Shown: piece after piece, positions 1 to 38,311 of the stretch
Layout: every line of letters starts with the position of its first letter
Position numbering within the stretch: position 1 is the stretch's first letter
IMG/VR virus record: IMGVR_UViG_3300025154_000037
Coordinates: 1-38,311 of that record
Direction: 5' to 3' (one strand)
Length of the DNA: 38,311 nt
Source of the DNA: a virus
The notes under the pieces: generated by a model
The model's database searches: none
Told to the model about the DNA's origin: nothing
What the model saw: the letters and a program-made list of their open reading frames with translations, nothing else
Made by a program: the position numbers and the translations under genes

Positions 1-127
1 CCTTTCGCTAAAATTAAATCAACCTCCCCGGCATTCATATTTATTTTAAGACTATCGGAAATTGCATAGTTTTGCTGCCATAAAACTTTCCTTGTACCAG
101 CAGAGTCAATGGATTTTTGGAGATAAA
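1..127. repeat. Left copy of 127-bp direct terminal repeat
   Basis: These 127 bases are identical to the last 127 bases of the window. The reading frame of the spike gene continues through the repeat when the ends are joined. An exact overlap of 127 is typical of an assembler k-mer overlap on a circular or circularly permuted molecule, so this is more likely a sign of circularity than a biological terminal repeat. Confidence 0.97.
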
Positions 128-4899: not shown

Positions 4900-4903
4900 A
4901 CTT

Positions 4904-4986
4904 CGACACCTTTCGACAAGCTCTCCGAAAGGAGTCCTTTGGATAAGGTGACATTACGAATGTCATACTGAGCCTGTCGAAGTATG
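4904..4986. repeat. Family A long variant plus short copy
   Basis: Copy one has arms CACCTT/AAGGTG (4907-4912, 4945-4950), the core, and an extra module built on AAAGGA C TCCTTT (4924-4943). Copy two has arms CATACT/AGTATG (4964-4969, 4981-4986). Confidence 0.9.
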
Positions 4987-4998
4987 GCATTTAATTTT

Positions 4999-6855: not shown

Positions 6856-6872
6856 ATGTTTTACCTTTTATT

Positions 6873-6926
6873 GTCATGGTGAGCTTGTCGAACCATGACG
6901 CCACACTTCGACAAGCTCAGTGTGAC
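6873..6926. repeat. Family A inverted pair
   Basis: Copy one has arms TCATGGT/ACCATGA (6874-6898). Copy two is inverted with arms CACACT/AGTGTG (6902-6924). The pair sits in the gap between the chaperone and tape measure genes. Confidence 0.92.
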
Positions 6927-6933
6927 AACACCC

Positions 6934-7616: not shown

Positions 7617-7655
7617 TTGTTCCCTCTCGGTTTTAAGTTATAATAATACTCCGCT

Positions 7656-7743
7656 CACATTTCGACAAGCTCAATGTAACACCACGCTTGTCAGTCTGAG
7701 CTTGCCTGCCACCCATTACTTTCGCCGTGGCAAGTCGAAGACT
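7656..7743. repeat. Family A copy plus nested-hairpin copy
   Basis: Copy one is CACATT + core + AATGTA (7656-7678). Copy two has arms CAGTCT/AGACT (7692-7697, 7739-7743). Its core is split as GAGC...GTCGA by an insert with TTGCC/GGCAA ends and an inner TGCCAC/GTGGCA stem. The next gene's stop codon lies at its edge. Confidence 0.88.
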
Positions 7744-8167
7744 AATAATAGCCCGCGATAATTGTAAAAAGATCATTGGCACCGGCTGCATCGGTACCAC
7801 CATCATTTGCATCAGTACCGTATTGTATTTTTATGTAACGTCTGAAAAAAAAGACTTCTTTAGGAGCCAATACATTATATTTACCCGCAACTACAATAAT
7901 CTTAAGTTCTGTTGATATAGAACCGCTGCCGGAATTGAAGTAAACTTTTTCCCAAGTAACATTATCCGGCGAAGTCCAAAATGTAAGTGTATCATTAGCA
8001 AGTGTATCCGGTGTGCTGATAGCAAGGAGGTGCATACTTTTAAGATCAACACCGGCAGAAGCGGAATCACCTACTGCAATGGAGTCCGGGAGTTCTTGGA
8101 AAAATTGAGCGCGGGCGGGAACGGAGAGTAAGAGTAGGAGAAAAAGTAAGAATTTATATTTTTTCAT
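7742..8167 (-). CDS. Exported protein in the tail module (signal peptide)
   Basis: A 141-residue protein. The chosen ATG at 8167 has AAAGGA seven bases upstream; the open frame extends further up only through a translated repeat. The first 21 residues form a textbook Sec signal peptide (KK, then a leucine-rich core, then PARAQ as cleavage region). The mature part is beta-rich with DSIAVGDSASAGVDLKSMH and TFWTSPDNVTWEKVYF, resembling surface or decoration proteins. It lies between the tube and chaperone genes, where a decoration or tube-associated protein might be expected. A signal peptide there is unusual. Function unknown. Confidence 0.7.
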   Translation of the reverse strand: MKKYKFLLFLLLLLSVPARAQFFQELPDSIAVGDSASAGVDLKSMHLLAISTPDTLANDTLTFWTSPDNVTWEKVYFNSGSGSISTELKIIVVAGKYNVLAPKEVFFFRRYIKIQYGTDANDGGTDAAGANDLFTIIAGYY

Positions 8168-8188
8168 TTGAGTTTCCTTTTTATTTTC

Positions 8189-8256
8189 GTCGTGAAAGGT
8201 GAAACGTGAATCGAAAGAAGTCTCACTTTTCATATTTTTACATTTCACGTTTTAAG
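8189..8256. repeat. Family C inverted repeat (GTGAAACGTGAA type)
   Basis: GTGAAAGGTGAAACGTGAA on one side and TTACATTTCACGTTTTAAG on the other form an interrupted palindrome between the tail tube and exported-protein genes. A similar element lies at 28276-28353. Confidence 0.65.
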
Positions 8257-9196
8257 TAAACGTTATTACAATTGCATTGTTACCGGCTGCAAGTGTTGGA
8301 TTTATATTAAATGATAAATCCCATGTTAAAACATTTTCGCGGCTGCCGTATTTAGGAGCTTCGAGAGTTACACCGGTTACAGCTAATGTTACAATGTTGC
8401 CGGCTCCGCCGCTTACTGCAGCGGCAATATTTGCTTGTGTGATCGCATTGAAAAGAGTCCATGGATTCAAACCAGATAATGCAACCGTTTCGGGATTCAT
8501 AGATCCTTTCGAATCTCTATCACTTACAAAGTAGCGTGCAATGCCGGATGTTGCATTTGCACTATCGCGTCTGCTTACAGTGTTCCCGATATCAAGCATA
8601 AGCTCTGTAATTACCAATGTCGCAACGCTGTTATAAGTAAAACCAGCTGCTTTGAAAATAAGAGGTGCAACAGTTGCATAAGTGGGATCCGGAAAAGCAA
8701 CATTAGATATGTGTGCACTTGCATATATACCGGTGAATTCCCAATCCACTTTCATTATGTCCCGGGTTTTAAGCGATATTTTGAAAGTACCAACACAACC
8801 GGAAATTTTATGTACATTACCATCGGCCCAAAACCATAGTGTAACAGATTCACTTTCAAAAACTGAATTAGGTGTATAAGCTGCACTTGTAACTGCCACA
8901 AGCGCTTCGGTCATGTTGCAAGCTCTGAATAAGCATCCTTCTCTAGGAGCAGTACCGGCAGTACCACTGCCTTTAAGTTCGGTTGAGAAGTTTAGTTTTA
9001 ATCCTGTACCCACTGCAATAGGAGCAATCTTACCAAAGTAAGCAAGGGGAATTGCTCTTTGCACCGGTTCGTTAATAACTTCAAAAGTCGGGTCGCCGGC
9101 AGTAACTAAAGCATTTGCAGCTTCGGTTGGTGTAGGATCTGTGCCATACTCGGTTTCGAGCTTTGCAAGTATTAAGTGTTTGTTAGCGCGTTCCAT
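8252..9196 (-). CDS. Major tail tube protein
   Basis: A 314-residue protein starting MERANKHLILAKLETEYGTD, which matches the N-terminal style of the siphophage tail tube family (short leader, then PTPTEAANALVTAGDPTFEV). It has alternating beta-strand character (LKLNFSTELKGSGTAG, MKVDWEFTGIYAS, LTWDLSFNINPTLAAGNN) and the YGSRENVLTW ending common to tube proteins that close the ring. It sits between the tail terminator and the chaperones in lambda-like order. The start is supported by AAAGGAT upstream. It is flanked upstream by a family A pair, as expected if hairpins delimit a highly expressed message (inference). Confidence 0.85.
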   Translation of the reverse strand: MERANKHLILAKLETEYGTDPTPTEAANALVTAGDPTFEVINEPVQRAIPLAYFGKIAPIAVGTGLKLNFSTELKGSGTAGTAPREGCLFRACNMTEALVAVTSAAYTPNSVFESESVTLWFWADGNVHKISGCVGTFKISLKTRDIMKVDWEFTGIYASAHISNVAFPDPTYATVAPLIFKAAGFTYNSVATLVITELMLDIGNTVSRRDSANATSGIARYFVSDRDSKGSMNPETVALSGLNPWTLFNAITQANIAAAVSGGAGNIVTLAVTGVTLEAPKYGSRENVLTWDLSFNINPTLAAGNNAIVITFT

Positions 9197-9217
9197 AATT
9201 TTTATCCTTTTTTATTG

Positions 9218-9271
9218 TCACATTGAGCTTGTCGAAATGTGACGTCATGCTTCGACAAGCTCAGCATGACA
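9218..9271. repeat. Family A inverted pair
   Basis: Copy one has arms TCACATT/AATGTGA (9218-9242). Copy two is inverted with arms TCATGCT/AGCATGA (9245-9269). Arms are perfect in both copies. Confidence 0.95.
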
Positions 9272-9277
9272 CTTAAA

Positions 9278-9520
9278 TTATTTTTTAATTTCTTCTTTAT
9301 CTTCATCTTCGTTTTTATCTTCATCTTTATCTTCACTCTTCGACAAGCTCAGAGTGACATCATCATGCTGTCCAAAGGACTCCCGGAGAGCCTGACGAAG
9401 CATCATTGCTTCATCTTCAAGGTTAGGAATAAGCTTGCCATCTTTGCGGATTATGTAGGACCCACAAGGCATATTGTTCTGAATGTTTATGTCTAAATGA
9501 TTGCTAATATTTGTTTCCAT
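9278..9520 (-). CDS. Small acidic protein partly made of repeat DNA
   Basis: An 80-residue protein starting METNISNHLDINIQ behind AAGGA. The first half (PCGSYIIRKDGKLIPNLEDE) looks like a genuine small phage protein. The second half reads through two family A repeats in frame (RQALRESFGQHD and VTLSLSKSE) and ends in a charged DKDEDKNEDEDKEE tract. It lies between the tail terminator and tube genes. Function unknown. Confidence 0.6.
   Translation of the reverse strand: METNISNHLDINIQNNMPCGSYIIRKDGKLIPNLEDEAMMLRQALRESFGQHDDVTLSLSKSEDKDEDKNEDEDKEEIKK
9334..9404. repeat. Family A pair inside a coding sequence
   Basis: Copy one has arms CACTCT/AGAGTG (9334-9356). Copy two is a long variant with arms CATGCT/AGCAT (9364-9369, 9399-9403) and the extra GTCCAAAGGACTCCCGGA module. 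Both are translated in frame within the 80-residue gene. Confidence 0.88.
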
Positions 9521-9534
9521 GTTTGTCCTTCTGA

Positions 9535-9583
9535 ACCCCACCCCGTCCCTCCCCTTTATTAAAGGGGAGGGTGAGGGAGAGGT
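9535..9583. repeat. Family B palindrome, terminator-like
   Basis: CCTCCCCTTT ATT AAAGGGGAGG is a perfect 10-bp stem in the gap between the tail terminator and small acidic protein genes. No T-run follows on either strand, so a transcript-stabilising or processing hairpin is as likely as a terminator. Confidence 0.85.
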
Positions 9584-10048
9584 TTACCCTGTGCTCCACG
9601 CATTTTTACGATATTGCACTGTGATCGAGATTGTTAAGTCAGCAATTTTATTACCGAACTGATCTGTTTTGTTGCGCTGTGAACCGCGGTATTGTGTAGT
9701 AAATGCAGTTCCGCTCCAAGTAAGATCGGTATTTATTGATTTAAGTATATCAGCTTTCATTTTACGTATGTCCGCAACAGCAGCACCTTTAGCAATTACA
9801 TCTATGTCAATATCAAGTCCAATATCATGCAGTGTACCGGCACTTTCAAGCTCTTCTAATAGTGTATCATTCGTTTCGCGTATGTTAATAATTTTTGTAA
9901 AGTCTTTATCGAAAGAAGCATTGCCCGGCATGTTATCTACAACTTTATCGAAGGTAGTGTAATAGGTGCTGCCACCGGCAACAATAGCAGCAAGCCGCGT
10001 TTTTATTGCCTCGATTATTGTGTGCTCTTTTATATCGGGTAGTGCCAT
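9584..10048 (-). CDS. Tail terminator-like protein
   Basis: A 154-residue protein starting MALPDIKEHTIIEAIKTRLA, a typical opening for tail completion/terminator proteins that cap the tail tube. The central DIGLDIDIDVIAKGAAVADIRKM and the C-terminal DLTWSGTAFTTQYRGS...LTISITVQYRKNAWSTG fit the gpU/terminator alpha-beta fold. It lies between the head-tail joiner and the tube gene. The assignment is by order and sequence style. The upstream sequence is a family A pair with a short gap containing AAAGGAT. Confidence 0.65.
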   Translation of the reverse strand: MALPDIKEHTIIEAIKTRLAAIVAGGSTYYTTFDKVVDNMPGNASFDKDFTKIINIRETNDTLLEELESAGTLHDIGLDIDIDVIAKGAAVADIRKMKADILKSINTDLTWSGTAFTTQYRGSQRNKTDQFGNKIADLTISITVQYRKNAWSTG

Positions 10049-10067
10049 TGTATCCTTTTATTATATG

Positions 10068-10142
10068 TCACACTGTCCAAAGGACTCCTTTCGGAGAGCT
10101 TGTCGAAGTGTGACACCATGTTTCGACAAGCTCAACATGACA
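10068..10142. repeat. Family A pair, first copy long variant
   Basis: Copy one has arms TCACACT/AGTGTGA (10068-10074, 10107-10113) with the GTCCAAAGGACTCCTTTCGGA module before the core. Copy two is inverted with arms CATGTT/AACATG (10117-10139). Confidence 0.93.
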
Positions 10143-10451
10143 CTACGGCGAAGCATTTTCGCTTAAATATAAATATGTCATTCCAAGTCCATCGGGAATA
10201 ATTTTAATTACATAATATGTAACAGTTTCAATCACAATAGTATCGCCTTGATCACCACCGGAAGCATCGGCATCTTTACACATAAAAACTGGATCGGTAG
10301 TTTCAATAACTCCGCCGGCAGTCATAATTTCCATACCCGGCTTAAAAAGTATACCGTTAAAATCTGTAGCCGACCACGATGGATTTGCCGACACTGCAAA
10401 TTCGTTAGTGTCTATAAATGCGGAGTTGAATGTGCTGTCAATAAGTGTCAT
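10143..10451 (-). CDS. Head-tail joining / head closure-like protein
   Basis: A 102-residue protein between the small head protein and the tail terminator. It is beta-rich (FNGILFKPGMEIMTAGGVIE, VETVTYYVIKIIPDG) and ends YLYLSENASP. Size and position match lambda gpFII-type connectors that close the portal vertex and receive the tail. No diagnostic motif was seen, so the name rests on position and length. Confidence 0.55.
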   Translation of the reverse strand: MTLIDSTFNSAFIDTNEFAVSANPSWSATDFNGILFKPGMEIMTAGGVIETTDPVFMCKDADASGGDQGDTIVIETVTYYVIKIIPDGLGMTYLYLSENASP

Positions 10452-10476
10452 TTATTTTTCTATGCTAACTCTACGC

Positions 10477-10557
10477 CATCTTTCGACAAGCTCTCCGAAA
10501 GGAGTCCTTTGGACAAGATGACAGTACGCTTGTCACACTGAGCCTGTCGAAGTGTGA
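10477..10557. repeat. Family A pair, first copy long variant
   Basis: Copy one has arms CATCTT/AAGATG (10477-10482, 10515-10520), the core and the AAAGGA/TCCTTT module. Copy two is inverted with arms TCACACT/AGTGTGA (10533-10557). Confidence 0.93.
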
Positions 10558-10566
10558 ATCGTAGTA

Positions 10567-10881
10567 TTATCTTTTTGAAAGAAGTTTTTCCACAAGGTCT
10601 AGAAGCTTGTCTAACTTTGCACTAAGCTTAGTGACCGGGTCAACAAACTTTTCATCACCCGTTTTAGGAGCTTTTCTTTTTGCATTGTCCGGAACAACCG
10701 CTTTAAGATCGCGGGTGCAATTGCCGGCAAGCACTTCCAGCTTATCTAAGCCGGATATTTTATATTTTTCACCGGGGTAAAATATTTTAGCTATTAATGC
10801 GCCCGATGGTTTTGCTCGATGCTGTTTAAGAACTAGAACTTCTTCAACTTCATCTACACGAGGAGTCTTTCCCTCTGCCAT
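10567..10881 (-). CDS. Small basic head-region protein
   Basis: A 104-residue protein. The ATG at 10881 (MAEGKTPRVDEVEEVLVLKQ) is chosen because GGAG lies eight bases upstream; an upstream ATG at 10935 lacks a site. The sequence has a small beta-like domain (KPSGALIAKIFYPGEKYKIS) and a basic, leucine-heptad C-terminus (LSAKLDKLLDLVEKLLSKR) likely to form a coiled coil. It follows the capsid gene in the slot of lambda gpFI or a decoration protein. Function not established. Confidence 0.6.
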   Translation of the reverse strand: MAEGKTPRVDEVEEVLVLKQHRAKPSGALIAKIFYPGEKYKISGLDKLEVLAGNCTRDLKAVVPDNAKRKAPKTGDEKFVDPVTKLSAKLDKLLDLVEKLLSKR

Positions 10882-15084: not shown

Positions 15085-15120
15085 ACCCACCCCTCGCCCC
15101 TCTTAAGAGGGGAAGAGTAC
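15085..15120. repeat. Family B palindrome directly 5' of the portal start
   Basis: GCCCCTCTTAAGAGGGG forms a short perfect stem, and the GGGTGGGT end (minus strand) touches the portal ATG at 15082. Confidence 0.85.
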
Positions 15121-15130
15121 GTTTTTTTGA

Positions 15131-15649: not shown

Positions 15650-15700
15650 TTTTGTACTCCTTGTGAATTTTAAATTGTTGTTAGATATCAAATGTTATTT

Positions 15701-15738
15701 ACCCACCCTTTCCGTTCCCCTCCAAGGAGGGGATTAGA
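15701..15738. repeat. Family B palindrome
   Basis: ACCCACCC leader and a CCCCTCC AA GGAGGGG stem in the gap between the exported-protein and gpW-like genes. Confidence 0.85.
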
Positions 15739-16498: not shown

Positions 16499-17113
16499 TC
16501 ACGATTTTTTTAGCTGTGTAAAGTACCGTATTTTATCTTGAAGTATGCGGGGAAAGTTTGTACGAACGAACAAGCCTATTTTTCTAAAAATATTTTGAGT
16601 AATAATATGACCAGCACCTTTAGAATATAATTCATCAATTGGTAATCTGGGAACAAAATTCTCGCCAGCAGTACGATCCCAAACATAATTTTTAGCGACT
16701 TTACGTTTAGAACTTTTCACGGTTCCTTTATACCTTTGAAAGACGCCCTTATGTCCAGATATCATAGTAGCGATAAAAGCATGTTTAATAATTTTTTGCT
16801 GTCCTTTTTTTACAGTAACAGAAACACCTTGGGGAACTTTCTTAGCACCAAAAGCAATAAGCGGCAAATCTCTATTGGCAGCAATGCGTGCGACATACTC
16901 GCCATCTAATTGTTTGCGTACTGTAATCCAAATATTTTTATTTAGATCTTTTAACTTAATATTATATTGATTGCGGGTTTCCTTTTTAGCATAAGTTTCG
17001 GTTTGTTGAGCAGTTTTTTTTATTGCAGAATAAAATGCTTTGTCTTGCTGGGCAATTTCTTTCTGCAGCACTTTTACAAATTGTTTTATGTTGGAGGAAA
17101 TGCTAATGTTCAC
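16499..17113 (-). CDS. Minor tail protein Z-like (tail completion)
   Basis: A 204-residue basic protein with helical opening VKVLQKEIAQQDKAFYSAIK and KTAQQTETYAKKETRNQYNI. The middle part (LPLIAFGAKKVPQGVSVTVK, KHAFIATMISGHKGVFQRYK) matches the look of the gpZ/minor tail protein Z family, which helps attach tails to heads. The start is GTG, overlapping the upstream stop as GTGA; a family B repeat lies directly upstream. Its place near the top of the late operon, away from other tail genes, differs from lambda order. Confidence 0.7.
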   Translation of the reverse strand: MNISISSNIKQFVKVLQKEIAQQDKAFYSAIKKTAQQTETYAKKETRNQYNIKLKDLNKNIWITVRKQLDGEYVARIAANRDLPLIAFGAKKVPQGVSVTVKKGQQKIIKHAFIATMISGHKGVFQRYKGTVKSSKRKVAKNYVWDRTAGENFVPRLPIDELYSKGAGHIITQNIFRKIGLFVRTNFPRILQDKIRYFTQLKKS

Positions 17114-17517
17114 AACCCACCCCTTCCGTTCCCCTCCAAGGAGGGGATATTGTTACGTAATGGATTCCATAAAAATATTTTTTGATTAAATTTTATTGAG
17201 AGCGGGGATATGCCTGGAATAATATCAAATTTTTGTAAGTTATTATACACAGTGCGTTCCGTTGTAAATTTTATTTTAGCAAGTTCGTTCACTTTTAGTC
17301 CGTATATTTTTTTAAATCTTTTAAGCCGTTTATATTCTCTCTCATAATCTTTGCGCGGCAGTGTATTAATATTAATAAGTTCAAGCTTAAGTTCAAGGTT
17401 ACAATTCAGCACACAATAATTTATATCATTTTTTTCAAAAGTGTAACCGCACAGTTCTTTTTTCCATACACTAAGCGGCTGGAGTTTTTGGCCATCGGTT
17501 AGAAGAGGATTCCTCAC
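17110..17517 (-). CDS. Small HTH-like protein at the top of the late operon
   Basis: A 135-residue basic protein, start GTG overlapping the previous stop. Residues of about 55-100 (DYEREYKRLKRFKKIYGLKV, NELAKIKFTTERTVYNNLQK) look like a helix-turn-helix, so DNA binding is plausible. The C-terminal residues (IPSLEGNGRGGL) are read from a family B repeat. It is coupled to the genes on both sides by 4-base overlaps. No family recognised; a late regulator is one option. Confidence 0.5.
   Translation of the reverse strand: MRNPLLTDGQKLQPLSVWKKELCGYTFEKNDINYCVLNCNLELKLELININTLPRKDYEREYKRLKRFKKIYGLKVNELAKIKFTTERTVYNNLQKFDIIPGISPLSIKFNQKIFLWNPLRNNIPSLEGNGRGGL
17114..17157. repeat. Family B palindrome at a gene overlap
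   Basis: CCCCTCC AA GGAGGGG stem and ACCCACCCC leader. On the minus strand GGGGTGGGTT ends at the GTG start of the gpZ-like gene, and the element is translated at the end of the upstream gene. Confidence 0.85.
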
Positions 17518-29107: not shown

Positions 29108-29339
29108 TGTAGGATTTGATTTTATTCATAAGCAGTGCATTGCGTCCGAGAAAAGCCATACCAACGTTGAATCTGCTAGTCTTAAATACACCGGCAACAC
29201 TTATTATTTTGGTAAATTTGTATAGACGAGCTTTCAATTCTTCCCTCTCAAATTCATTTGGTTGGTTGTTTCGCTTCTTGCGGTAATCTATTTTTACGGC
29301 TTGATTATTGACTAACATTTCTTTATTTATGTTTAACAT
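29073..29339 (-). CDS. First gene of the early operon
   Basis: An 88-residue basic protein starting MLNINKEMLVNNQAVKIDYR, with REELKARLYKFTKIISVAGV and a helical end. It lies directly behind the TTGACA/TATGTT promoter, so it is probably the first early protein. A second ATG at residue 8 is possible. No family recognised. Confidence 0.55.
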   Translation of the reverse strand: MLNINKEMLVNNQAVKIDYRKKRNNQPNEFEREELKARLYKFTKIISVAGVFKTSRFNVGMAFLGRNALLMNKIKSYIEKYEARNGSA

Positions 29340-29352
29340 TGATTATTTTAAT

Positions 29353-29437
29353 GTAAACATAATGAATTGTAAACGATTTGTCAACAATTATTTTTATAAT
29401 ATAAACGATAGACACCATAAAATTATATAAAGTAAAC
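29353..29437. promoter_or_regulatory. Four spaced TAAAC boxes between divergent operons
   Basis: GTAAAC or ATAAAC occurs at 29353, 29369, 29401 and 29432, with start-to-start spacings of 16, 32 and 31 bases (about 1.5 and 3 helical turns). They cover the early promoter and the leader of the plus-strand HTH gene. They could be operator sites for a repressor (inference). Confidence 0.5.
29356..29384 (-). promoter_or_regulatory. Early operon promoter
   Basis: On the minus strand TTGACA (29384-29379), a 17-base spacer and TATGTT (29361-29356), followed about 17 bases later by the early gene's ATG. Confidence 0.75.
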
Positions 29438-29441
29438 ACTT

Positions 29442-29783
29442 ATGAGCGTAAAAAATTTTACAAAAGATGATATTTTGCGGGCTATTTATGCTAAATATGG
29501 GACACTCGAAGAATTAGCTATTAAATTAAATACTTCTAAACAAAATATTTCAGCAAAACTTAAACGACGGTCGCCAAAATTTTTGAGTGAATTGAGAACA
29601 GCCGGGATTATTGTTTACGGTGATGATCAACAAAAAAATATTGTAAGCGAAACACTTGTTACTTATCAAGCAAACAGAATTATGGATCTTGAAAAAGAAG
29701 TTGAGAAATTGAAAGAAGAAAATGTTAAATTGCGTGTAGGGTCTGTATCTCTTATTAAAAATAAAGGGAATAAAATAAAATGA
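29442..29783 (+). CDS. HTH repressor-like protein with coiled coil
   Basis: A 113-residue protein. DDILRAIYAKYGTLEELAIK then LNTSKQNISAKLKRRSPKFL is a helix-turn-helix, and MDLEKEVEKLKEENVKLRVG is a C-terminal coiled coil for oligomerisation. It is transcribed away from the early operon, next to the integrase, which fits a lysogeny repressor or activator. It is coupled to a small membrane gene by an ATGA overlap. Confidence 0.68.
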   Translation: MSVKNFTKDDILRAIYAKYGTLEELAIKLNTSKQNISAKLKRRSPKFLSELRTAGIIVYGDDQQKNIVSETLVTYQANRIMDLEKEVEKLKEENVKLRVGSVSLIKNKGNKIK

Positions 29784-29935
29784 ACTCAACACTAATTGCA
29801 ATACTTGCCATACTGGTTGTAGTAATTTTGATCAGCCGTGATATTGCGCTGTGGTACTTCAAAATAAATTTCAGAGCAAAACAAAATGATGAGATTATAA
29901 AACTGCTAACAGAAATAAAAGATGGCAAGCGTTGA
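29780..29935 (+). CDS. Small single-pass membrane protein (51 residues)
   Basis: Starts MNSTLIAILAILVVVILISR, a strong membrane segment, then a polar tail (KQNDEIIKLLTEIKDGKR). The ATG overlaps the HTH gene stop (ATGA) and its end overlaps the integrase start by 14 bases, so the three genes appear translationally linked. Confidence 0.6.
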   Translation: MNSTLIAILAILVVVILISRDIALWYFKINFRAKQNDEIIKLLTEIKDGKR

Positions 29936-30929
29936 ATCATACAAAGGATATTTATATTTAAAATTTTACGATTCATATAAACGGTACACGCGGCGCAAGT
30001 CGCTTCATTTAAAAGATACTCAAGCAAACCGCCGCCTTGCACAAAGAGAAGCAAAAAATTTTCATCCCGATTTTGTACCGGCAGATTTTATAAAGCCCGG
30101 CGATCTTCCACTTATACTTACTCAAGGTAAGAATCAGTTCACGTTGTACCGCAATTTCCGTCCGCAGACAAAAATAATTTACGGATACGCGGTTAGTCAT
30201 TTAGTAACTGCCTCCAGTGATAAAGTCATCCGCAATTTTACCCATAAGGATTACATACAATTGCTTTCGCATTTCCGTAAAGAAAAACTTTCGCAGAACT
30301 CACAAAGCATTTACACACGGGCGCTTCATTCGATGTTCAATTATTTTGTTAAGCAAGGAATGATTAAAGAAAATATTATCGATAGAATTGCTTATGTCGA
30401 AAAAGTTTCCCGCCCAATACCGATTGAAGATCTGCGGAAGATATACGCCATACTCGAATCCAAGGTTGAATATTACCATCAGTACGCACTCATCTATTTA
30501 CTTGCAAACACCGGCATCCGGATAAGCACTGCTATTGCGCTCAACTGGGAGGATATCGATTGGCAAAATAAGCTTATCATTTTCCGTAATGTAAAAGTAC
30601 GAGGCACCGAGTATGCCATTCCGTTGGTCCCGAGGTTTGAAGCCGTCTTTACCAAACTAGGGATAAAACAAAAGGGCAAGGTATTCCCCTATTCGCACAA
30701 GGACAGCATACGGTTCCTCCGGCGCGCTCAGCAGACCTTAAAGCTTGAGAAGATACACAGCATACACAAATTAAAGCACACATTTATCAATGAGATGGTA
30801 AAGAAGGGAATATCATTAGATGTACTATCCGAAATAACCAACACATCTCTACGCACGCTACGCAAACATTACATGCATCTGGACCGTAAGTTTATTGCAG
30901 ATCAGCTAGAAAGGAATGAGGTAGCGTAA
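29922..30929 (+). CDS. int: Tyrosine recombinase (integrase) with divergent active site
   Basis: A 335-residue integrase. The N-terminus is a short arm-type domain (YLYLKFYDSYKRYTRRKSLH), then an SAM-like core-binding region of about 75-165 and the catalytic domain. Active-site candidates: R200 (NTGIRIS), K225 (VKVRGTEYAIPL), H282 with K285 (HKLKHTF; families usually have HxxR), T308 at the usual His/Trp position, and Y317 (RKHYMHL). It would recombine attP with a tRNA-Asp attB; the tRNA fragment lies 120 bases downstream. The Lys for Arg exchange is unusual but conservative. Confidence 0.85.
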   Translation: MASVESYKGYLYLKFYDSYKRYTRRKSLHLKDTQANRRLAQREAKNFHPDFVPADFIKPGDLPLILTQGKNQFTLYRNFRPQTKIIYGYAVSHLVTASSDKVIRNFTHKDYIQLLSHFRKEKLSQNSQSIYTRALHSMFNYFVKQGMIKENIIDRIAYVEKVSRPIPIEDLRKIYAILESKVEYYHQYALIYLLANTGIRISTAIALNWEDIDWQNKLIIFRNVKVRGTEYAIPLVPRFEAVFTKLGIKQKGKVFPYSHKDSIRFLRRAQQTLKLEKIHSIHKLKHTFINEMVKKGISLDVLSEITNTSLRTLRKHYMHLDRKFIADQLERNEVA

Positions 30930-30930
30930 T

Positions 30931-30954
30931 GTCATTCTGAGCTTGTCGAAGAAC
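30931..30954. repeat. Family A copy after the integrase
   Basis: Intact core (30939-30949) with short arms TTCT/AGAA. It lies directly behind the integrase stop codon. Confidence 0.8.
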
Positions 30955-31013
30955 AATATCGAGTCAAAAGTCGAGTCAACGCCAAAAATGATAAATGCAA
31001 TAGGTAAAAATGA

Positions 31014-31045
31014 AAACTCCGTAACCTTTTACATTTACGGAGTTT
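31014..31045 (-). terminator. Strong hairpin terminator (works best on the minus strand)
   Basis: A perfect 11-bp stem AAACTCCGTAA/TTACGGAGTTT with a 10-base loop. On the minus strand it is followed by a T-rich tail (TTCATTTTT). It lies just past the tRNA fragment, so it may be the host tRNA's own terminator captured with attP, and could also end the minus-strand late operon. On the plus strand it could weakly end the integrase message. Confidence 0.75.
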
Positions 31046-31052
31046 ATGATTG

Positions 31053-31094
31053 CGGGGCCGACGAGACTCGAACTCGCGACCTCCTGCGTGACAG
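31053..31094 (-). other. Likely attP: 3' portion of a tRNA-Asp(GTC) gene
   Basis: On the minus strand this reads from the anticodon loop CTGTCAC (anticodon GTC, Asp), the stem half GCAGG, a T-arm GCGAG TTCGAGT CTCGT, to the acceptor CGGCCCC plus G. The 5' half of the tRNA is absent, so it is not a gene here. Next to the integrase, this is the typical attP identity segment that restores the host tRNA gene on integration. Confidence 0.8.
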
Positions 31095-31254
31095 TTATAT
31101 TTTTTCTGCTATTCTTTTTATTTTTACAAATATTTCAATTTTTCTTTGCACTAAATTACACTATTCCTAAACAAATTCAAGTAAATTTTCGAGTCAATTA
31201 TTTAATTTCTTGTGCTCTATCTCTAGTGAATTGTTTCTTTAAGCGAACAAAATT
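31095..31254. other. Non-coding gap after attP
   Basis: About 160 AT-rich bases between the tRNA fragment and the last gene of the spike/membrane module. GAGTCAA is seen near 31190 and also at 30960 and 30972, flanking the core at a distance, and might be an integrase arm site. No gene seen. Confidence 0.35.
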
Positions 31255-31650
31255 TTATTTCTTGAATTTCTCTAATGCCGGTATTTCATATCTATAACCG
31301 GATTTTAGGCGTTTATTATAAATTATCAATTCATTTGTATTCTTAATTTTATAGATAATATAGTCCGTATCTGCTTCTCCATAATACTTGCCATCAAGGA
31401 ATATTGCATTCTTACCTTGTGCATATAAATTAGGAAACAAACTAATCTCTGTCAAAGGTTCTAAGGTTTTAACTTTAACTTTATCGCTATTGAAATAATC
31501 AAATGCAACATAGACTATTGAACCGCAAATTAATAATATAGCAATAATAGTTTTCTTTGTGTGGTTTTTTAAAAAGTACAATAAGCCCGAAAATATCATA
31601 ACCATAGCTTCATCTACGTTCTCTGTTTGTTGTATCGTATAAGTTCCCAT
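31255..31650 (-). CDS. Single-pass membrane protein, last gene of the late operon
   Basis: A 131-residue protein starting MGTYTIQQTENVDEAMVMIF; the TTG eight bases further up is less likely. One membrane segment (KTIIAILLICGSIVYVAFDY) precedes a soluble beta-like domain (FLDGKYYGEADTDYIIYKIK). Unknown function; the setting with two other small membrane proteins suggests a lysis or envelope role. Confidence 0.55.
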   Translation of the reverse strand: MGTYTIQQTENVDEAMVMIFSGLLYFLKNHTKKTIIAILLICGSIVYVAFDYFNSDKVKVKTLEPLTEISLFPNLYAQGKNAIFLDGKYYGEADTDYIIYKIKNTNELIIYNKRLKSGYRYEIPALEKFKK

Positions 31651-31651
31651 T

Positions 31652-31837
31652 TTATTCAAACACTTTATCTTCTACTCTCGTTAATCTTGAATCAAGACCA
31701 CTAATTTGAACTTCTATTTTTTCAATATCACCCTCAAGTTTTGTGATTGCAATTTTAACGCCCATATAAGCACCAAATCCAGAGGCAGCTATGGTAACAA
31801 TTGATACTGTTAATTGGAATAATTGGAATGTTTCCAT
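31652..31837 (-). CDS. Small membrane protein with coiled coil (XhlA-like layout)
   Basis: A 61-residue protein: hydrophobic segment at residues of about 8-30 (LTVSIVTIAASGFGAYMGVK) followed by a short coiled coil (KLEGDIEKIEVQISGLDSRL). Size and arrangement resemble XhlA-type holin partners in mirror order. AGG lies six bases upstream of the ATG. Confidence 0.5.
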   Translation of the reverse strand: METFQLFQLTVSIVTIAASGFGAYMGVKIAITKLEGDIEKIEVQISGLDSRLTRVEDKVFE

Positions 31838-32025
31838 AGTTTACCTATCAACATTATTAGGATTAGTAAATTTAAGTTTGTTAGAACATTTGAAATTATT
31901 GCTGGATAGGAAATATTAGTACTTCCCCACCAGGCCATTAAAAATTTTTCATCTATTAAATAACCGATTAAAGCAATTACATTTATTGTAATTATACAAA
32001 TGCTAATTATTATTATCTTCCACAT
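31810..32025 (-). CDS. Small two-helix membrane protein (holin-like)
   Basis: A 71-residue protein with two hydrophobic segments (IIIISICIITINVIALIGYL and ISNVLTNLNLLILIMLIG) and a basic end. It overlaps the next gene by 28 bases. With the neighbouring small membrane proteins it could form a second lysis set beside the lysin/holin pair near 4 kb. Confidence 0.5.
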   Translation of the reverse strand: MWKIIIISICIITINVIALIGYLIDEKFLMAWWGSTNISYPAIISNVLTNLNLLILIMLIGKLWKHSNYSN

Positions 32026-32029
32026 ATAT

Positions 32030-32425
32030 TCATATTTGAATTAATAACCTAAAAATTATTGCACTGATTAAAAACATTAACTTATTTAACGGTGTTCCTA
32101 ATTGTTCAATTCCAGATGTTGTGCCTGGTGATCGATGAAACCAATCATTTCCATTTTTCGTATTATAAATTCCGTCTCTTACAATCCATCTAATTGCGCT
32201 TGTTAGAATAATATCCGAGACACCAACTAATAAATCTTCGTTCTCAAAAGTATCATATCCTATCGCTATACCAGTTCCCAAAGCTAATCCAGAATCAAAA
32301 AATTCTAATGTGTGCCATGTTCTACTATCTGATTTATTATTAAATACTCTATCTTTCATTCGGTAAAATTCAGAACTACCAGAAACTGCACTCCAAGACA
32401 AACCAGTTATTATAATCCAAATCAT
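32030..32425 (-). CDS. Hypothetical protein with hydrophobic ends
   Basis: A 131-residue protein starting MIWIIITGLSWSAVSGSSEF and ending LMFLISAIIFRLLIQI. The middle (RTWHTLEFFDSGLALG) shares W..(x)EFFD..L.LG with the 110-residue protein encoded at 33498 (WKFTEFFDGLPLG), suggesting they are related. Function unknown. Confidence 0.5.
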   Translation of the reverse strand: MIWIIITGLSWSAVSGSSEFYRMKDRVFNNKSDSRTWHTLEFFDSGLALGTGIAIGYDTFENEDLLVGVSDIILTSAIRWIVRDGIYNTKNGNDWFHRSPGTTSGIEQLGTPLNKLMFLISAIIFRLLIQI

Positions 32426-32426
32426 T

Positions 32427-33287
32427 TTATTGTCCCAATTGCGAAATCATTTGCCACTGGGTGCCGTCAAAAATTGCAACCACAATTTGTCCAACCTCTA
32501 TATCACCACTTATAAGTTCTTGATCGTGCTTTTTAAATAAGTCTTTTTGTGCAAGTGCATTAATAAGAATATTGCAAGCTCCAGTATTTGCGGTGGCAGC
32601 TATCCAACTAACCTGAGTGCCCGCTACAATTGTGGTATAACTTGCTAAACCAGATATAACTAAATCATAAATATCTGGTTGGGCTGCTGTACTTGTATCG
32701 GTTGCAAAATTAAAAGCTCCATCTACATTAAGTTTATTATTAGGTGTGATATTCCCGATGCCGAAATTGCCTGTATTAATAAAAGAATTACTTCCCCCAT
32801 TAAAAGTAATTTTATTCACATTATTAGCATCATAAACGTCAAACCTACCAGCACCGCCTGTTGCAGATTGCTCAAGTGTTAGTAGGTATTGGTTATCACT
32901 ACTTGTGATTTGAAAAGGAAAAACATTTCCTGTTGGAGATTTTATGTGTAAATTGCTTTGGGGACTCGTCAGCCCGATACCTACCCGTCCAGTTGCATCT
33001 ACATAAATTGCAGAATCTGGATCGCCATCGGAAGCGTCCATAAAGTTTTTATAGGCATATCTGGAATTAGAAAACGTTCTGAATGAAGCTGTATCTGCAT
33101 CATCAAGCTTCCCATCCAACTCCCATTGTTTTGCAATAGAAGTGGTCGTATCTGAATATGGAATTTTACCCGCTACTTGTCCGAGAATTGTGTTTACGTC
33201 TGTTGTATGATAGTTTAGCGTTGAATCTTGAGCCAATGTCCAAGTTGTCAGCCCTAAAAACATAAGCAAAATAAGTTTGTTTAACAT
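32427..33287 (-). CDS. Tail fibre-like protein with signal peptide
   Basis: A 286-residue protein. AAGGAG sits eight bases before the ATG. The N-terminus (MLNKLILLMFLGLTTWTLAQ) is a clear Sec signal peptide. The mature part holds phage fibre motifs, including RVGIGLTSPQSNLHIKS and GNFGIGNITPNNKLNVDG, the GIG..P...L.V repeats found in many fibres and chaperoned adhesins. The C-terminus (IAATANTGACNILINALAQK, VAIFDGTQWQMISQLGQ) is typical of fibre tips. A cleavable export signal on a tail fibre is unexpected. Confidence 0.75.
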   Translation of the reverse strand: MLNKLILLMFLGLTTWTLAQDSTLNYHTTDVNTILGQVAGKIPYSDTTTSIAKQWELDGKLDDADTASFRTFSNSRYAYKNFMDASDGDPDSAIYVDATGRVGIGLTSPQSNLHIKSPTGNVFPFQITSSDNQYLLTLEQSATGGAGRFDVYDANNVNKITFNGGSNSFINTGNFGIGNITPNNKLNVDGAFNFATDTSTAAQPDIYDLVISGLASYTTIVAGTQVSWIAATANTGACNILINALAQKDLFKKHDQELISGDIEVGQIVVAIFDGTQWQMISQLGQ

Positions 33288-33498
33288 CTTCGTACTCCTT
33301 AAAGTTATAAGTCCAATATTGATTAAAAACTAAAATGTAATTCCCCCCAGCATCTTTTATTCGGTCATAATCTACATCTCTTAAATATTGATAACCGAGT
33401 GGCAAGCCATCAAAAAATTCTGTGAATTTCCAAAAGTTTGACTGTGCATTTGCGATCTGCATCGCAACAAATAAAAATATAAATATTAATTTTTTCAT
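33166..33498 (-). CDS. Small exported protein overlapping the fibre gene
   Basis: A 110-residue protein starting MKKLIFIFLFVAMQIANAQS, a clear signal peptide with ANA-Q cleavage region, then FWKFTEFFDGLPLGYQYLRD. The ATG overlaps the spike stop as TAATG, so translation is coupled. The last 40 codons overlap the start of the fibre gene by 122 bases in another frame, which is far longer than other overlaps here and suggests a lost stop codon or frameshift near the end. Confidence 0.55.
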   Translation of the reverse strand: MKKLIFIFLFVAMQIANAQSNFWKFTEFFDGLPLGYQYLRDVDYDRIKDAGGNYILVFNQYWTYNFKEYEDVKQTYFAYVFRADNLDIGSRFNAKLSYNRRKHNSRTSSG

Positions 33499-36176
33499 TA
33501 TTCTATCCCAATATTAATTTCTGAACCTTTATAAGCATCGTTTGTGTACTTATTTATTAGATAAATGCCCTGTCCATCTGTCGCTGTTACTGTTGCAGAT
33601 AACGCTAATTTATTTGTGGTTGTATTAACTCCAAGTATCTTAACTCTAAACGTATCTACTTTAATACTGTCTCCATCTAACCAATTCCATCCATCAAAGA
33701 AAACTCTTGCATCAACCACCGTAAGTGTATCATTAGTCTGAGTTCCACTTACATAAGTATGCGGTCTGCCGGCATCTATTAAAGGTGCTTTGCCGTTATA
33801 CTTAACTAAAACAGAGTCATATAAATCGCCCCGTGATGTTTCTGGAACCCAATAAATGTAATTAAGAACAGAATCATCTGGTGCATCAAATGTCGAATAT
33901 GCTAAATAGCTATCAATGTTATTTTGAAATATGTGTCCAGTAAAATCTGTTGTATTTGTAGTTCTTATAATTAATGGACTGATACTATATAAATTATTTC
34001 CATCCGAACCAAAATAATTATACTCTTCAACATTACCTGAAGGATTATAAGTAGTGTTCCAGTCCCAAACCAGCATCTGTACTGAATCTGCATTAACACC
34101 AGTGAATCTAACCCAGCTTGTATCTCCACCTCTTGTAACTGCATTATTAAAAATATAATTATTTGCCAATTGGTTATCACCATCATCCAAGTTCGTTGTT
34201 AACGTAAATGTTTCGTAAGGATAATCAAAAACATTGTTATAAACTCTTACATCATGTGAGGGTGAATTTAACCGAGCACCACCTGGATTATCCCATTTCC
34301 TTCTTGGTACACCCATTCTTTTTACAACGTTATATCGGTAAATAGAATTATAAGAGTCCATTCCAAAAGCACCAATTTCGCCATTATATAATGTAGGATT
34401 GTTCGTCCCTCGCTGTCCATTCCCGCTTCTTTCAAAAAAGTTATACTCAACTACAAAATCATATTCTAAACTGCCATCTTCGAGAAGATATAATCCATGA
34501 TGATATGTATTATAAACCCTATTCCCACGAATCACTATATGATGACTACCTTTACCAAATCCAAGTAACGAATGTGGAAAATCTCTAAAATAATTGTTCT
34601 CAAATAAAATATAGCTTGACTTGATAAAATTGAACATATCATTTGCTACATTAACTTGAGGAAATCCGCCAATAAAAATACTGTTCTTAACTGTTAAATA
34701 AAGATTATAAGTATAATCACCATAAAATACTCCAGTGCCATCTAAAGCCAAGTGATCTTCTGCCGTAGAGTAATGATGACAGTAGATATTATCAAATGTT
34801 AAATTTGACCCGCCTTTTACGGATACCCATCTTCTACCAATTATTTCTAAGTTACTAACAGCAACACCGCTTTTAGAAGCCGCACTTATAACAAAATCAT
34901 TTGTTGTTAAACTTGGAAGTTGTAATTTTGCTCTGCCTGTACCATAGGAGGTATAAACCGCATTATTCTGTGCAACTAATTGTGTATCATTATAAGTATA
35001 GGGCGCTAAGAATGCGACCGTATCACCAGCAATTAAACTTAAAGCATTAACCTCTGCTGTCGTACTTAATGTATCACCTCCACCCCACGGACTCACATAG
35101 TAATCAGCACTTCCTGAAGGCGGTAATGTCTCACCATAAATATATAAAGTATCTCCGCTTTGACACCATTTTTTAACCGCATCAACTAAACTCTTATCAA
35201 CTACTTCTATGCCTATTTCATTCCCAAAATATAAAGAGATTACTTCATCTGTTTGGGATTTCCAGTAATAAGTATTTGAAGCCACACCACTTGAATACAC
35301 TAAGAACTCTGCTCTTTTGGCTGGAGTATTATTACTATATGCTGACCTTACTGCTCCATTATCACTTACGTTATTCAGTAAGAAAAAAACAATATTTTGA
35401 CTCCCAGCATAAGCATAGCTTGTAAACAGCTCATTAGCTATAGATGTAATGGTTAAAGTATCTGTGGCATCGGTAGTCCAAGTTCGCATATCATAATCAT
35501 AATAAGCTGTTGTTGCATTAGTCTTTCGATAATCAAAAGAATATCTTGTCGAAATTGTATCTGGGGAAGCGGTATCCTCACCAATTATTTTTATCTTGCA
35601 CGTATTACCAGATTGATTTTGGTCGGCAGTAAACCTTAATTTAGCACTATCAGTAGATGACGGTTCTGTTATATTCCTAAATCTAAATGCTGCTGAACAA
35701 ACGAAACCATCTACTTGTCCCATTAAAAGATTATCGTAACTTGGATAAAATCCACTTCCAGTTCCATATCTGTAAACATCATCATAATCATCAGTAGGAT
35801 AATAGATGTCAGTAACAGTTCCTCCCGCAGCACCAGCAACATAAGTATATTCAGTAAGTAATTCAGAATAGAAAACTGCATTAAGAACTAATCCGCAAGT
35901 CTTAGTAATTACAAAAGGATTATCGAATGTTCCAGTTGTAAATATTGTATCAGTAGTTGCATTAACTAATGCTTGCCCAGCATCAAAAGTTTGTTTAGCT
36001 AAAACACTCGTTAAACCAGAATAAGAATCATTTCCGTTTTGTGCATCAACATAAATATTAGTTGAGGTATCAACCGCTACATTCGCTGGATTCCAAAACC
36101 CAACTCCAGTTTGCTGAGAATAAATTAAACCGCTAAAGAATAATATATTAATAAAAACTTTGTACATAAGTTCCAT
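33498..36176 (-). CDS. Large beta-helix tail spike with signal peptide
   Basis: About 892 residues from the ATG at 36176; the open frame reaches a TTG at 36200. The start (MELMYKVFINILFFSGLIYS) is a signal-peptide-like segment followed by QQTGVGFWN. Next comes YVDAQNGNDSYSGL, the usual entry of polysaccharide-degrading right-handed beta-helix proteins. Residues of about 450-720 carry PbH1-type repeats (VSNLEIIGRRWVSVKG, YILFENNYFRDFPHSLLG, HIVIRGNRVYNTYHHGLYL). It probably binds or degrades surface glycans. The C-terminal part (DTFRVKILGVNTTTNKLAL) is beta-rich. No catalytic residues were assigned. Confidence 0.78.
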   Translation of the reverse strand: MELMYKVFINILFFSGLIYSQQTGVGFWNPANVAVDTSTNIYVDAQNGNDSYSGLTSVLAKQTFDAGQALVNATTDTIFTTGTFDNPFVITKTCGLVLNAVFYSELLTEYTYVAGAAGGTVTDIYYPTDDYDDVYRYGTGSGFYPSYDNLLMGQVDGFVCSAAFRFRNITEPSSTDSAKLRFTADQNQSGNTCKIKIIGEDTASPDTISTRYSFDYRKTNATTAYYDYDMRTWTTDATDTLTITSIANELFTSYAYAGSQNIVFFLLNNVSDNGAVRSAYSNNTPAKRAEFLVYSSGVASNTYYWKSQTDEVISLYFGNEIGIEVVDKSLVDAVKKWCQSGDTLYIYGETLPPSGSADYYVSPWGGGDTLSTTAEVNALSLIAGDTVAFLAPYTYNDTQLVAQNNAVYTSYGTGRAKLQLPSLTTNDFVISAASKSGVAVSNLEIIGRRWVSVKGGSNLTFDNIYCHHYSTAEDHLALDGTGVFYGDYTYNLYLTVKNSIFIGGFPQVNVANDMFNFIKSSYILFENNYFRDFPHSLLGFGKGSHHIVIRGNRVYNTYHHGLYLLEDGSLEYDFVVEYNFFERSGNGQRGTNNPTLYNGEIGAFGMDSYNSIYRYNVVKRMGVPRRKWDNPGGARLNSPSHDVRVYNNVFDYPYETFTLTTNLDDGDNQLANNYIFNNAVTRGGDTSWVRFTGVNADSVQMLVWDWNTTYNPSGNVEEYNYFGSDGNNLYSISPLIIRTTNTTDFTGHIFQNNIDSYLAYSTFDAPDDSVLNYIYWVPETSRGDLYDSVLVKYNGKAPLIDAGRPHTYVSGTQTNDTLTVVDARVFFDGWNWLDGDSIKVDTFRVKILGVNTTTNKLALSATVTATDGQGIYLINKYTNDAYKGSEINIGIE

Positions 36177-36546
36177 AGTATATTGAACCAACTTTTTCAA
36201 TAGTAATTAAATCAGTCTTAGCCCCTAAAGTAATTGTAGGTGCTGTATTATCCTTCCACGTTATCGAAGGTGAGGTGAAAGCAAGTGTATAATTACTTGC
36301 TGTATTAGTCACCCAAATATTTATTATCTGACCAGACACCATGTCTGAGATTGTTAAACCAGCATTCTCACTTAAAGTAACGTAAAACGTATTTGAACTA
36401 TCACAATCTGCTATTAAACTATTGCCACCATAAAGATAAATGGGAGCGGCAAACAATTGGACGGTTTTTAATGGCAGTGATATTGTTTCGTTTTGTGCTA
36501 ACCCACAAAACGAAAATAGAATTATAAATAATATTACCTGTTTCAT
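36148..36546 (-). CDS. Small exported beta-protein between two spikes
   Basis: A 132-residue protein starting MKQVILFIILFSFCGLAQNE: signal peptide, with GGAGG seven bases upstream of the ATG. The mature part (TFYVTLSENAGLTISDMVSG, NYTLAFTSPSITWKDNTAPT) looks like a short fibre- or capping-type beta domain. The start overlaps the spike stop (TAATG). It may be an accessory subunit to one of the spikes. Confidence 0.65.
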   Translation of the reverse strand: MKQVILFIILFSFCGLAQNETISLPLKTVQLFAAPIYLYGGNSLIADCDSSNTFYVTLSENAGLTISDMVSGQIINIWVTNTASNYTLAFTSPSITWKDNTAPTITLGAKTDLITIEKVGSIYYGTYVQSFY

Positions 36547-38311
36547 TAATCTGTCCTCCAATAAGGTACGTTTCTGCTTGTACGCTCAACTTTTATATCG
36601 TGTTTGGTGTAAGTGTTTGCGCTTATTAATTTTAGTACACCTACATTTCCGGTTGTCCTCCATATTAATGTTGGTTTGTAAGTTGCGGGATCAGTGTTTG
36701 GACTTGAGCTGCCCATGCTTACTATCGAAAAACTTGGAGTGGAAGATGTATTGCTGGCTATTGCAATAAATTCATAATTCGCAATTTCTTTGCCCACATC
36801 TGAAGTTGTGGTAATTTTTATTATATGACTAACCAAATCGCCATCTGCATCTACTTCAACTGAATCAATTATCGTAGTAGAATCGCCAACATATCTTGCT
36901 TTTAATAATTTAACCCAAGTACCATCATAAGCATCATTCATCTCGGCAATTAAGCGACCATTGTATGTATTGCCTCTGGTTACTTGGCGGATATTATTGC
37001 TGCTTACATAATAAGGATAAGTAAACGTTCCGTAAATATGGTTATTGTTAAGACTTGTAATGTGTGCATACAAAGTATCTGCAAAGTGATCGAGTGTATC
37101 TGCGCCTGGATTTGTAAATGATAATTTTATTCCATTTATACCAGTTCCATAAATTTTGTTGTTTTGAATAGTCACAAACTTTGGAGGGACAATACCAGCA
37201 GTAAAATAAATCACACCATCCTGCTCACCACTAAATAAATCCGTAGTAACATTAGGATTCATAATCACATTATTTATAATATCAACCGATGCCGTTTGTG
37301 GATTAGTTTTTTCTGAAGAAGCATTAAAATAAAATATCGGTGAACGCGAACCTCTCGCATTTAAGGTATCAAGAATGTTTCCATCAACTATCCAACTTCC
37401 GCTTGATTCGTAAGGATAGCCAATACTCTCTTGATAATCGCCCAAAAGAATTGCCTGCCAATATAAGCTGCTGTCTAATGGATTTCTGCCCTGTACTGTT
37501 TTATACCAAGACTGATCGCCAATTATTTCTTCAAGCCAAAGAGAATCTTGAGTAATAGTATTGTGTGCTATTATTCTATTATAAACTCTCTTTTCAAAAC
37601 CAGTATCCCCCGATTCATTTACGCAGCTTATTCCACTATAACCAAAACCATTAATTTTATTATTGGAAATTGTAGCATCTTCTCCACCATGTGTATCTAT
37701 CCCATCTCTTGAATTACGAATAAGAGTGTTTCCATCAATAGTAATGTTCTTATTGTCTCTGGTAATACTATTGTAAGTGTATCTGCCCATAAATGAAACT
37801 CCATACCCACTATCTGCTCCAGTCTGCAAATTATAACCGGCATAAGATAAATTATTATCTCGAACCGTTGTTTCGCTTGAACCGCTTATTAAAAGATTTG
37901 CATAAGTGCAGCTATCCATTGTGGTTTTTGTTACCACCAATTTATCAGAATTAACAACTCTTACACCAGCATACTTGCCTCCTCTTACTGTTATATCTTC
38001 TATCTTCACTTCAGATACATCTCTAATAGCTATTACACTTTGGAAAGCATTTGTGGTTGACATGTTCCCCGAAATCTCCCCACTTCCACTTATTGTTAAA
38101 CGCTTGCCATTGTAAAATGTTATTTCACCAACCGGATTATAATAATCAGTTGTAGGCGCAACTATGGTAGATGTTATCTTTGCACCTTTCGCTAAAATTA
38201 AATCAACCTCCCCGGCATTCATATTTATTTTAAGACTATCGGAAATTGCATAGTTTTGCTGCCATAAAACTTTCCTTGTACCAGCAGAGTCAATGGATTT
38301 TTGGAGATAAA
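36546..38311 (-). CDS. Beta-helix tail spike, C-terminal part (gene crosses contig ends)
   Basis: This continues the gene that starts at 524 on the other end of the contig. It contains the right-handed parallel beta-helix: ISGSGEISGNMSTTNAFQSV, IKIT-type turns such as VKIEDITVRGGKYAGVRVVN, ITIDGNTLIRNSRDGIDTHG and IHSNK-like NKINGFGYSGISCVNESG. The C-terminus (VVNSDKLVVTKTTMD through VPYWRTD) closes with a small beta domain, perhaps the receptor-binding tip. The frame is open to the contig edge; an internal ATG at 38222 is not the start. Confidence 0.82.
   Translation of the reverse strand, partial: YLQKSIDSAGTRKVLWQQNYAISDSLKINMNAGEVDLILAKGAKITSTIVAPTTDYYNPVGEITFYNGKRLTISGSGEISGNMSTTNAFQSVIAIRDVSEVKIEDITVRGGKYAGVRVVNSDKLVVTKTTMDSCTYANLLISGSSETTVRDNNLSYAGYNLQTGADSGYGVSFMGRYTYNSITRDNKNITIDGNTLIRNSRDGIDTHGGEDATISNNKINGFGYSGISCVNESGDTGFEKRVYNRIIAHNTITQDSLWLEEIIGDQSWYKTVQGRNPLDSSLYWQAILLGDYQESIGYPYESSGSWIVDGNILDTLNARGSRSPIFYFNASSEKTNPQTASVDIINNVIMNPNVTTDLFSGEQDGVIYFTAGIVPPKFVTIQNNKIYGTGINGIKLSFTNPGADTLDHFADTLYAHITSLNNNHIYGTFTYPYYVSSNNIRQVTRGNTYNGRLIAEMNDAYDGTWVKLLKARYVGDSTTIIDSVEVDADGDLVSHIIKITTTSDVGKEIANYEFIAIASNTSSTPSFSIVSMGSSSPNTDPATYKPTLIWRTTGNVGVLKLISANTYTKHDIKVERTSRNVPYWRTD
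38185..38311. repeat. Right copy of 127-bp direct terminal repeat
   Basis: Identical to positions 1-127. Removing one copy gives a circle of 38,184 bp. Confidence 0.97.

Follow-up and report, generated by a model that had tools for sequence, protein, structure and literature searches.

A temperate phage attachment site carrying the 3' half of tRNA-Asp(GTC) and a terminator-like hairpin beside an integrase gene

The phage whose 38,311-nucleotide sequence is analyzed here (IMG/VR record IMGVR_UViG_3300025154_000037, hereafter the window) most likely inserts into a tRNA-Asp gene without destroying it, as it carries the 3' half of tRNA-Asp(GTC) and a terminator-like hairpin beside its integrase gene. 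We assign a probability of about 0.9 to this reading, which takes the site to be attP and recombination to occur at the anticodon loop. The tRNA fragment, the hairpin, the integrase gene, the repeats, and the closed genome were all seen directly, as was the same layout, with both junctions, in a sister prophage. Weighing against the reading are a host attB that did not turn up, the lack of a tRNA-Asp half beside the nearest integrase relative (L034), the absence of two usual catalytic residues from the integrase, a hairpin with an interrupted U-tract and the weakest z score of the eight sites folded, and an inexact repeat pair on the P side. In the proposed mechanism, the integrase would bind the repeated arm sites that flank the core, and attP would recombine with a host tRNA-Asp(GTC) gene at its anticodon loop. 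Integration would join host nucleotides 1 to 31 to phage-borne nucleotides 32 to 73 and the phage-borne hairpin; attL would be a working tRNA gene with a terminator, and the displaced host 3' half would mark attR.

The window is a complete genome, that of a temperate tailed phage whose portal protein belongs to the lambda family. Profile searches identified, in addition to the portal, a terminase GpA, a capsid protein, a primase-like protein, and a DNA methylase, and PHROG identified a tape measure protein. Both ends of the sequence carry the same direct repeat of 127 bp, a length that also fits an assembler k-mer overlap. A separate contig, G002 (loci L002 and L081), corresponds to positions 29316 to 38311 followed by 1 to 10747; because it runs through the join at 100% identity, the genome is closed. 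Given this closure and the contig that spans it, the site is attP rather than attL or attR. The first-pass annotation had also called it attP, a designation supported by the closed genome, the adjoining integrase, and the flanking repeats. Coordinates are collected in Table 1.

Table 1. Features of the attachment site region and the ends of the window
Feature	Coordinates	Strand	Basis
Direct terminal repeat, left copy	1..127		Contig closes on itself
Tyrosine recombinase (integrase), 335 aa	29922..30929	+	PF00589, PHROG phrog_1
Putative arm-type site 1, P' arm, TCGAGTCAA	30959..30967	+	Motif count
Putative arm-type site 2, P' arm, TCGAGTCAA, 12 bp from site 1	30971..30979	+	Exact tandem pair with site 1
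Terminator-like hairpin, 11-bp perfect stem, loop of 10, U-rich tail in tRNA direction	31014..31045	-	Stem search, folding
attP core, tRNA-Asp(GTC) 3' half, nt 32 to discriminator plus one base	31052..31094	-	Identical to tRNA-Asp genes in L006 and L007
Predicted 7-bp strand-exchange region, anticodon loop CTGTCAC	31088..31094	-	Start of tRNA-Asp identity, six att sites
Degenerate putative arm-type site, P arm, TCAAGTAAA, 7/9 matches	31177..31185	+	Motif comparison
Putative arm-type site, P arm, TCGAGTCAA	31189..31197	+	Motif count
Direct terminal repeat, right copy	38185..38311		G002 crosses join

Read on the reverse strand from 31094 to 31052, the 43-bp core is CTGTCACGCAGGAGGTCGCGAGTTCGAGTCTCGTCGGCCCCGC. 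Its 5' end is the 7-nucleotide anticodon loop, its 3' end lies one base beyond the discriminator, and it is identical over all 43 bp to the 3' part of the tRNA-Asp(GTC) genes called by ARAGORN in L006 and L007. The earlier description of a minus-strand 3' half of tRNA-Asp(GTC), running from the anticodon loop to the acceptor, is thus confirmed with its coordinates; the match measures 43 bp, not 42. ARAGORN called no whole tRNA gene in the 38-kb window, so the tRNA-Asp sequence is a fragment. An Rfam scan gave no tRNA match, and its single match, to an sRNA, had an E value of 0.95, which is chance level. An exact 43-bp tRNA match only 6 bases from such a hairpin is far beyond chance.

We compared six att sites with the whole tRNA-Asp gene of contig G005. 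Identity to that gene starts at the first base of the loop in five of the six (the window, G004, G006, G007, and G015), its 5' limit falling just before nucleotide 32; in the sixth, G003, the boundary lies one base earlier. The shared boundary at nucleotide 32 suggests strand exchange at the anticodon loop, most likely within the 7-bp segment listed in Table 1.

The two arms of the hairpin (31014 to 31024 and 31035 to 31045) are 100% complementary. The 50 nucleotides 3' of the tRNA half fold with -12.4 kcal/mol and a z score of -3.50, and none of 300 dinucleotide shuffles folded as well; the first-pass claim of a perfect hairpin 3' of the tRNA half, in the same orientation, holds. Across the 38 kb, perfect stems of at least 11 bp with loops of 3 to 12 occur at five separate places. 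We infer terminator activity for the hairpin. Against it, the U-tract of the tail, TTTTCATTTTT, is interrupted, and a simple terminator scan with a loop limit of 8 left out this loop-10 hairpin; it listed three sites in total, against 1.7 expected, one of them a weak plus-strand site within the tRNA fragment. Among the eight sites that were folded, a set that does not include G015, at most 1 of 300 shuffles was as good at any site, and the window hairpin has the weakest z score in a range that extends to -6.72.

The exact 43-mer is found in seven stretches on six viral contigs, one from the same virus and five others (G003 to G007), and G015 carries 42 of its 43 bases. In G004 and G005 it belongs to a tRNA-Asp gene, and these are the only contigs in which the restored tRNA arrangement is seen; as a fragment it occurs in G003, G006, G007, and also G004. 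A hairpin follows the 43-mer in each of G003 to G007, with differing sequences: those of G003, G004, G005, and G007 are variants of one theme, that of G006 resembles that of G015, and the window hairpin is unlike any of them. G004 (IMGVR_UViG_3300009503_000040; L005 and L006) contains both prophage ends. Its attL, at the contig end, is a tRNA-Asp gene lacking the first two bases. attL and attR share the identical 43 bp and a further 49 bp that include the hairpin, and they differ from the next base on either side; the phage and host copies thus agree across the tRNA half and the hairpin. Like the window, G004 has the 43-bp tRNA-Asp half, a hairpin, tandem repeats, and an integrase convergent with the tRNA, but its hairpin sequence is different, its arm motif is TATAACAC, and its integrase is 31% identical. 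As read from the sequence, its junctions are the best direct support for the first-pass prediction that tRNA and terminator are both rebuilt. For the window itself that prediction stands in part: by analogy with G004, its hairpin is fairly likely to be a copy of its own host's terminator.

The main competitor is a variant of the same reading, in which attP is real, the core is the 43 bp only, and the hairpin is a phage-borne terminator serving the rebuilt tRNA or int. We consider it distinctly less probable, yet a serious contender. Phages with the same 43 bp have different hairpins, and the common theme of G003, G004, G005, and G007, together with the likeness between the hairpins of G004 (tRNA-Asp) and G017 (tRNA-Val), is what a phage module would produce; a 43-bp core would also suit mycobacteriophages, in which the core is usually 30 to 45 bp in the available part of PMC10865867. 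The junctions of G004 point the other way, since the hairpin is shared by attL and attR and the phage and host copies agree there, and related hosts may use like terminators after several tRNA genes. The G017 hairpin (L042, after position 4990) follows a tRNA-Val half and is near-identical to the one after the tRNA-Asp core in G004 (L025). Occurring after different tRNAs, the pair counts against a strictly host-specific terminator; it may reflect either a terminator type common to the hosts or a module carried by the phages.

Two further readings would remove the site's role as attP, and we regard both as very improbable. Were the window a fragment of an integrated prophage, the site would be attR or attL and would adjoin host DNA on one side, and an attR can indeed appear as a lone tRNA fragment, as in L025; this is contradicted by the closed genome, with its 127-bp terminal repeat and an independent contig (G002) across the join, and by the occurrence of one motif on either side of the core. 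The fragment might instead be a decayed phage-encoded tRNA gene with no part in integration: phages do carry tRNA genes, and tRNA genes are annotated under matches among the records searched. Yet the 43 bp are identical throughout, without decay, the exact truncation at nucleotide 32 is common to other phages, and the integrase and the TCGAGTCAA repeats lie alongside, on which grounds we rejected it. Insertion into tRNA-Asp with restoration of the gene remains the preferred reading.

The motif TCGAGTCAA occurs three times in the 38 kb, and all three copies fall in a 239-bp interval at attP. Among 300 first-order Markov sequences it had a mean of 0.17 copies and a maximum of 2, the mean being uncorrected for choice because the choice of motif followed the observation of the repeat. 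From one end of the core the sites are 73 and 85 bp away, from the other 83 to 103 bp. On the P' side they form an exact tandem pair, compared with 12 of 500 random flanks; on the P side there is no exact tandem pair, only one exact and one degenerate site. The repeats flank the core as integrase arm sites do and would presumably be bound by the integrase. With both sides counted, exact tandem 8-mer pairs were present in 9 of 13 att flanks; in the controls, 11 to 30 of 500 random sequences per 300-bp flank, and 6 of 500 for the 80-bp flank, contained one. The four flanks without a pair are the P side of the window, G004 attR (80 bp covered), and the two of G005, where one flank consists of host DNA. 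Pairs of TATAACAC lie about 100 bp out on the P side in G003, G004, G006, and G007 and, judged by eye, G015. The window's motif recurs in L034, where TGACTCG stands at 5003, 5014, 5218, and 5230, twice per side around another core; the interval from 5003 to 5236 holds no tRNA-Asp half.

Three further tRNA-Asp sites (L023, 7194 to 7236; L029, 7417 to 7459; and L082, 1501 to 1543) have TATAACAC on the phage side and, beyond the core, a different arm motif, either GCTACGAT or a TGTACC triple. A tandem insertion of two elements into a single tRNA gene is the probable explanation, and contig G003, which has an integrase relative at either end (L044 and L023), fits it.

The integrase matches PF00589 (E = 3e-15; 56.8 bits against a cut-off of 27.1) and the PHROG integrase family phrog_1 (5.9e-35), and a 100% identical gene is present in L003, from the same virus. 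The integrase gene and the tRNA half are convergent; from the end of the gene it is 85 bp to the hairpin and 123 bp to the core. The nucleophile, Y317, is invariant in alignment A2 (four sequences), and the protein belongs to the tyrosine recombinase superfamily. The alignment gives the catalytic set as R200, K225, H282, K285 in place of the usual Arg, N307 in place of the usual His or Trp, and Y317, which departs from the canonical RKHRH pentad at two positions. The same two changes are found in L034 (HRLK/TNTS), the nearest relative at 46% identity, and in L035 (HKLK/SNTD) at 43%; the HxxK and Asn combination is thus present in all three members of the subfamily (the window, L034, and L035) and in none of the three remaining members of the alignment. 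We raise only tentatively the idea that a small phage integrase subfamily might use the altered set R200-K225-H282xxK285-N307-Y317; if so, and if active, the enzyme would count as a tyrosine recombinase whose active site is non-canonical. In the accessible part of PMC8138268 the pentad is given as RKHRH, with one subgroup having an alternative arginine, and the word lysine does not appear there.

A search for integrases with A2, whose query rows included the integrases of G004, G006, and G007, returned 48 loci. Besides the same virus, the stretch fetched contained the tRNA-Asp half at 2 of 47 loci (L040, which is G007, and L041, which is G004), both already known. The sequence after the integrase was read in the best 11 loci (L034 to L044); the other 36 were tested for tRNA-Asp alone. 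Beside related integrases, L038 has a tRNA-Lys half (loop CTCTTAA) and L042 a tRNA-Val half (loop CTTACAA), each followed by a hairpin; both halves were recognized by eye, with no whole gene compared. L036, L037, and L044 lie on G006, G015, and G003, contigs that carry the tRNA-Asp half elsewhere. In L035, L039, and L043 no tRNA-Asp half was seen before the stretch ended. Nor was one found in the stretch after the integrase of L034, and as this is the nearest relative, the integrase subfamily is not tied to tRNA-Asp.

Two families of dispersed repeats were also observed. The REP-like motif GAGCYTGTCGA has 26 copies between 2609 and 30939; in 20 of these the flanks pair over at least 5 bp, with stems that differ and yet are complementary. 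Five head-to-head pairs 27 bp apart resemble REP doublets (3924/3951, 6881/6908, 9225/9252, 10096/10123, and 13110/13137). The stop codon of the integrase gene is overlapped by one repeat of this type (30927 to 30953), which immediately precedes the P' arm sites. The sequence GAGCTTGTCGA is present in 8 of 83 loci compared, seven of them from the virus group of the window; the eighth, L074, has a single copy. To our knowledge, REP-like repeats are unusual in phages; among the literature matches listed for the motif, none was on bacterial repeats by title. The second family, of the CCCCTCC-AAGAGGGGA type, lies at 450 to 492, 4320 to 4383, 15085 to 15127, 15684 to 15733, and 17098 to 17147.

The first-pass annotation had predicted a specific attB and proposed a search of host genomes for the exact sequence. 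Whole tRNA-Asp genes with the 43 bp do exist (L006 and L007), but the exact 82-mer had no match in genome_contigs (84,980 genomes, contigs of at least 3 kb), and that search yielded no host; in the viral collection the 82-mer is on one contig, from the same virus. A relaxed gapped pattern (tRNA end plus CTCCG/CGGAG hairpin) found nothing in viral_contigs except the same virus and, in the genome collection, one unrelated high-G+C genome, L010, which was rejected as host: its tRNA half is 98% identical, but its hairpin is different. Partial matches, none better, were found in three of five genomes of its phylum (L010 included). At an E value of 0.01, 20 phage and 100 plasmid records matched the 96-bp query, none over 80% of it. 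Identity stayed under 60% in every match to these two proteins: the integrase matched 11 phage records (about 24 to 29% identity for the best listed) and 74 plasmid records, and the terminase matched 731 phage records, with the best rows at 33 to 35% and from mixed hosts. Matches to the G005 integrase were no more informative on the host. Within viral_contigs, the integrase search returned the same virus only, and the capsid search two contigs of the same virus group, which comes from metagenomes 3300025012, 3300025015, and 3300009285. Probably either the host lineage is missing from the collection or the host's terminator differs. The predicted attB is precise and testable for an uncultivated phage, a tRNA-Asp gene followed by AATCATAAACTCCGTAAATGTAAAAGGTTACGGAGTTTT, and thereby offers a route to its host.

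Integration into tRNA genes with restoration by an attP fragment is a long-established, well-known phage strategy. In tRNA-dependent lysogeny, as described in part of PMC10865867, phages of the Fionnbharth type likewise use a tyrosine integrase to enter a host tRNA gene, but they share a core of only about 10 bp with the host and carry a whole phage tRNA, whereas the window has a 43-bp match and no tRNA gene. The available text of the same paper describes mycobacteriophage common cores (e.g., that of Boilgate) that overlap tRNA 3' halves. They resemble the window in the tRNA 3' half, the putative arm-type sites on either side, and the tRNA rebuilt at attL; they differ in that their hosts are mycobacteria and in the hairpin that follows the tRNA half in the window, and the word terminator does not occur in the main text of PMC10865867. 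The closest likeness is to the anticodon-loop class of phages and islands, Islander class A, for which Williams 2002 is cited; in the accessible part of PMC4383910, Islander counts 2083 islands whose site is centred on the anticodon and 3760 that have a 3' fragment. The window has a tDNA 3' fragment starting from the loop and an integrase adjoining attP, by which this class is recognized, along with putative arm-type repeats on both sides, a usual though not defining trait, the P-side partner being degenerate. These tyrosine-integrase elements likewise carry a tDNA fragment in attP and rebuild the tRNA on integration. The window does not differ from them in kind; it is a new phage in which the copied stretch may include the terminator hairpin, and together with G004 it would add an example of a stretch shared by phage and host that runs through the hairpin after the tRNA.
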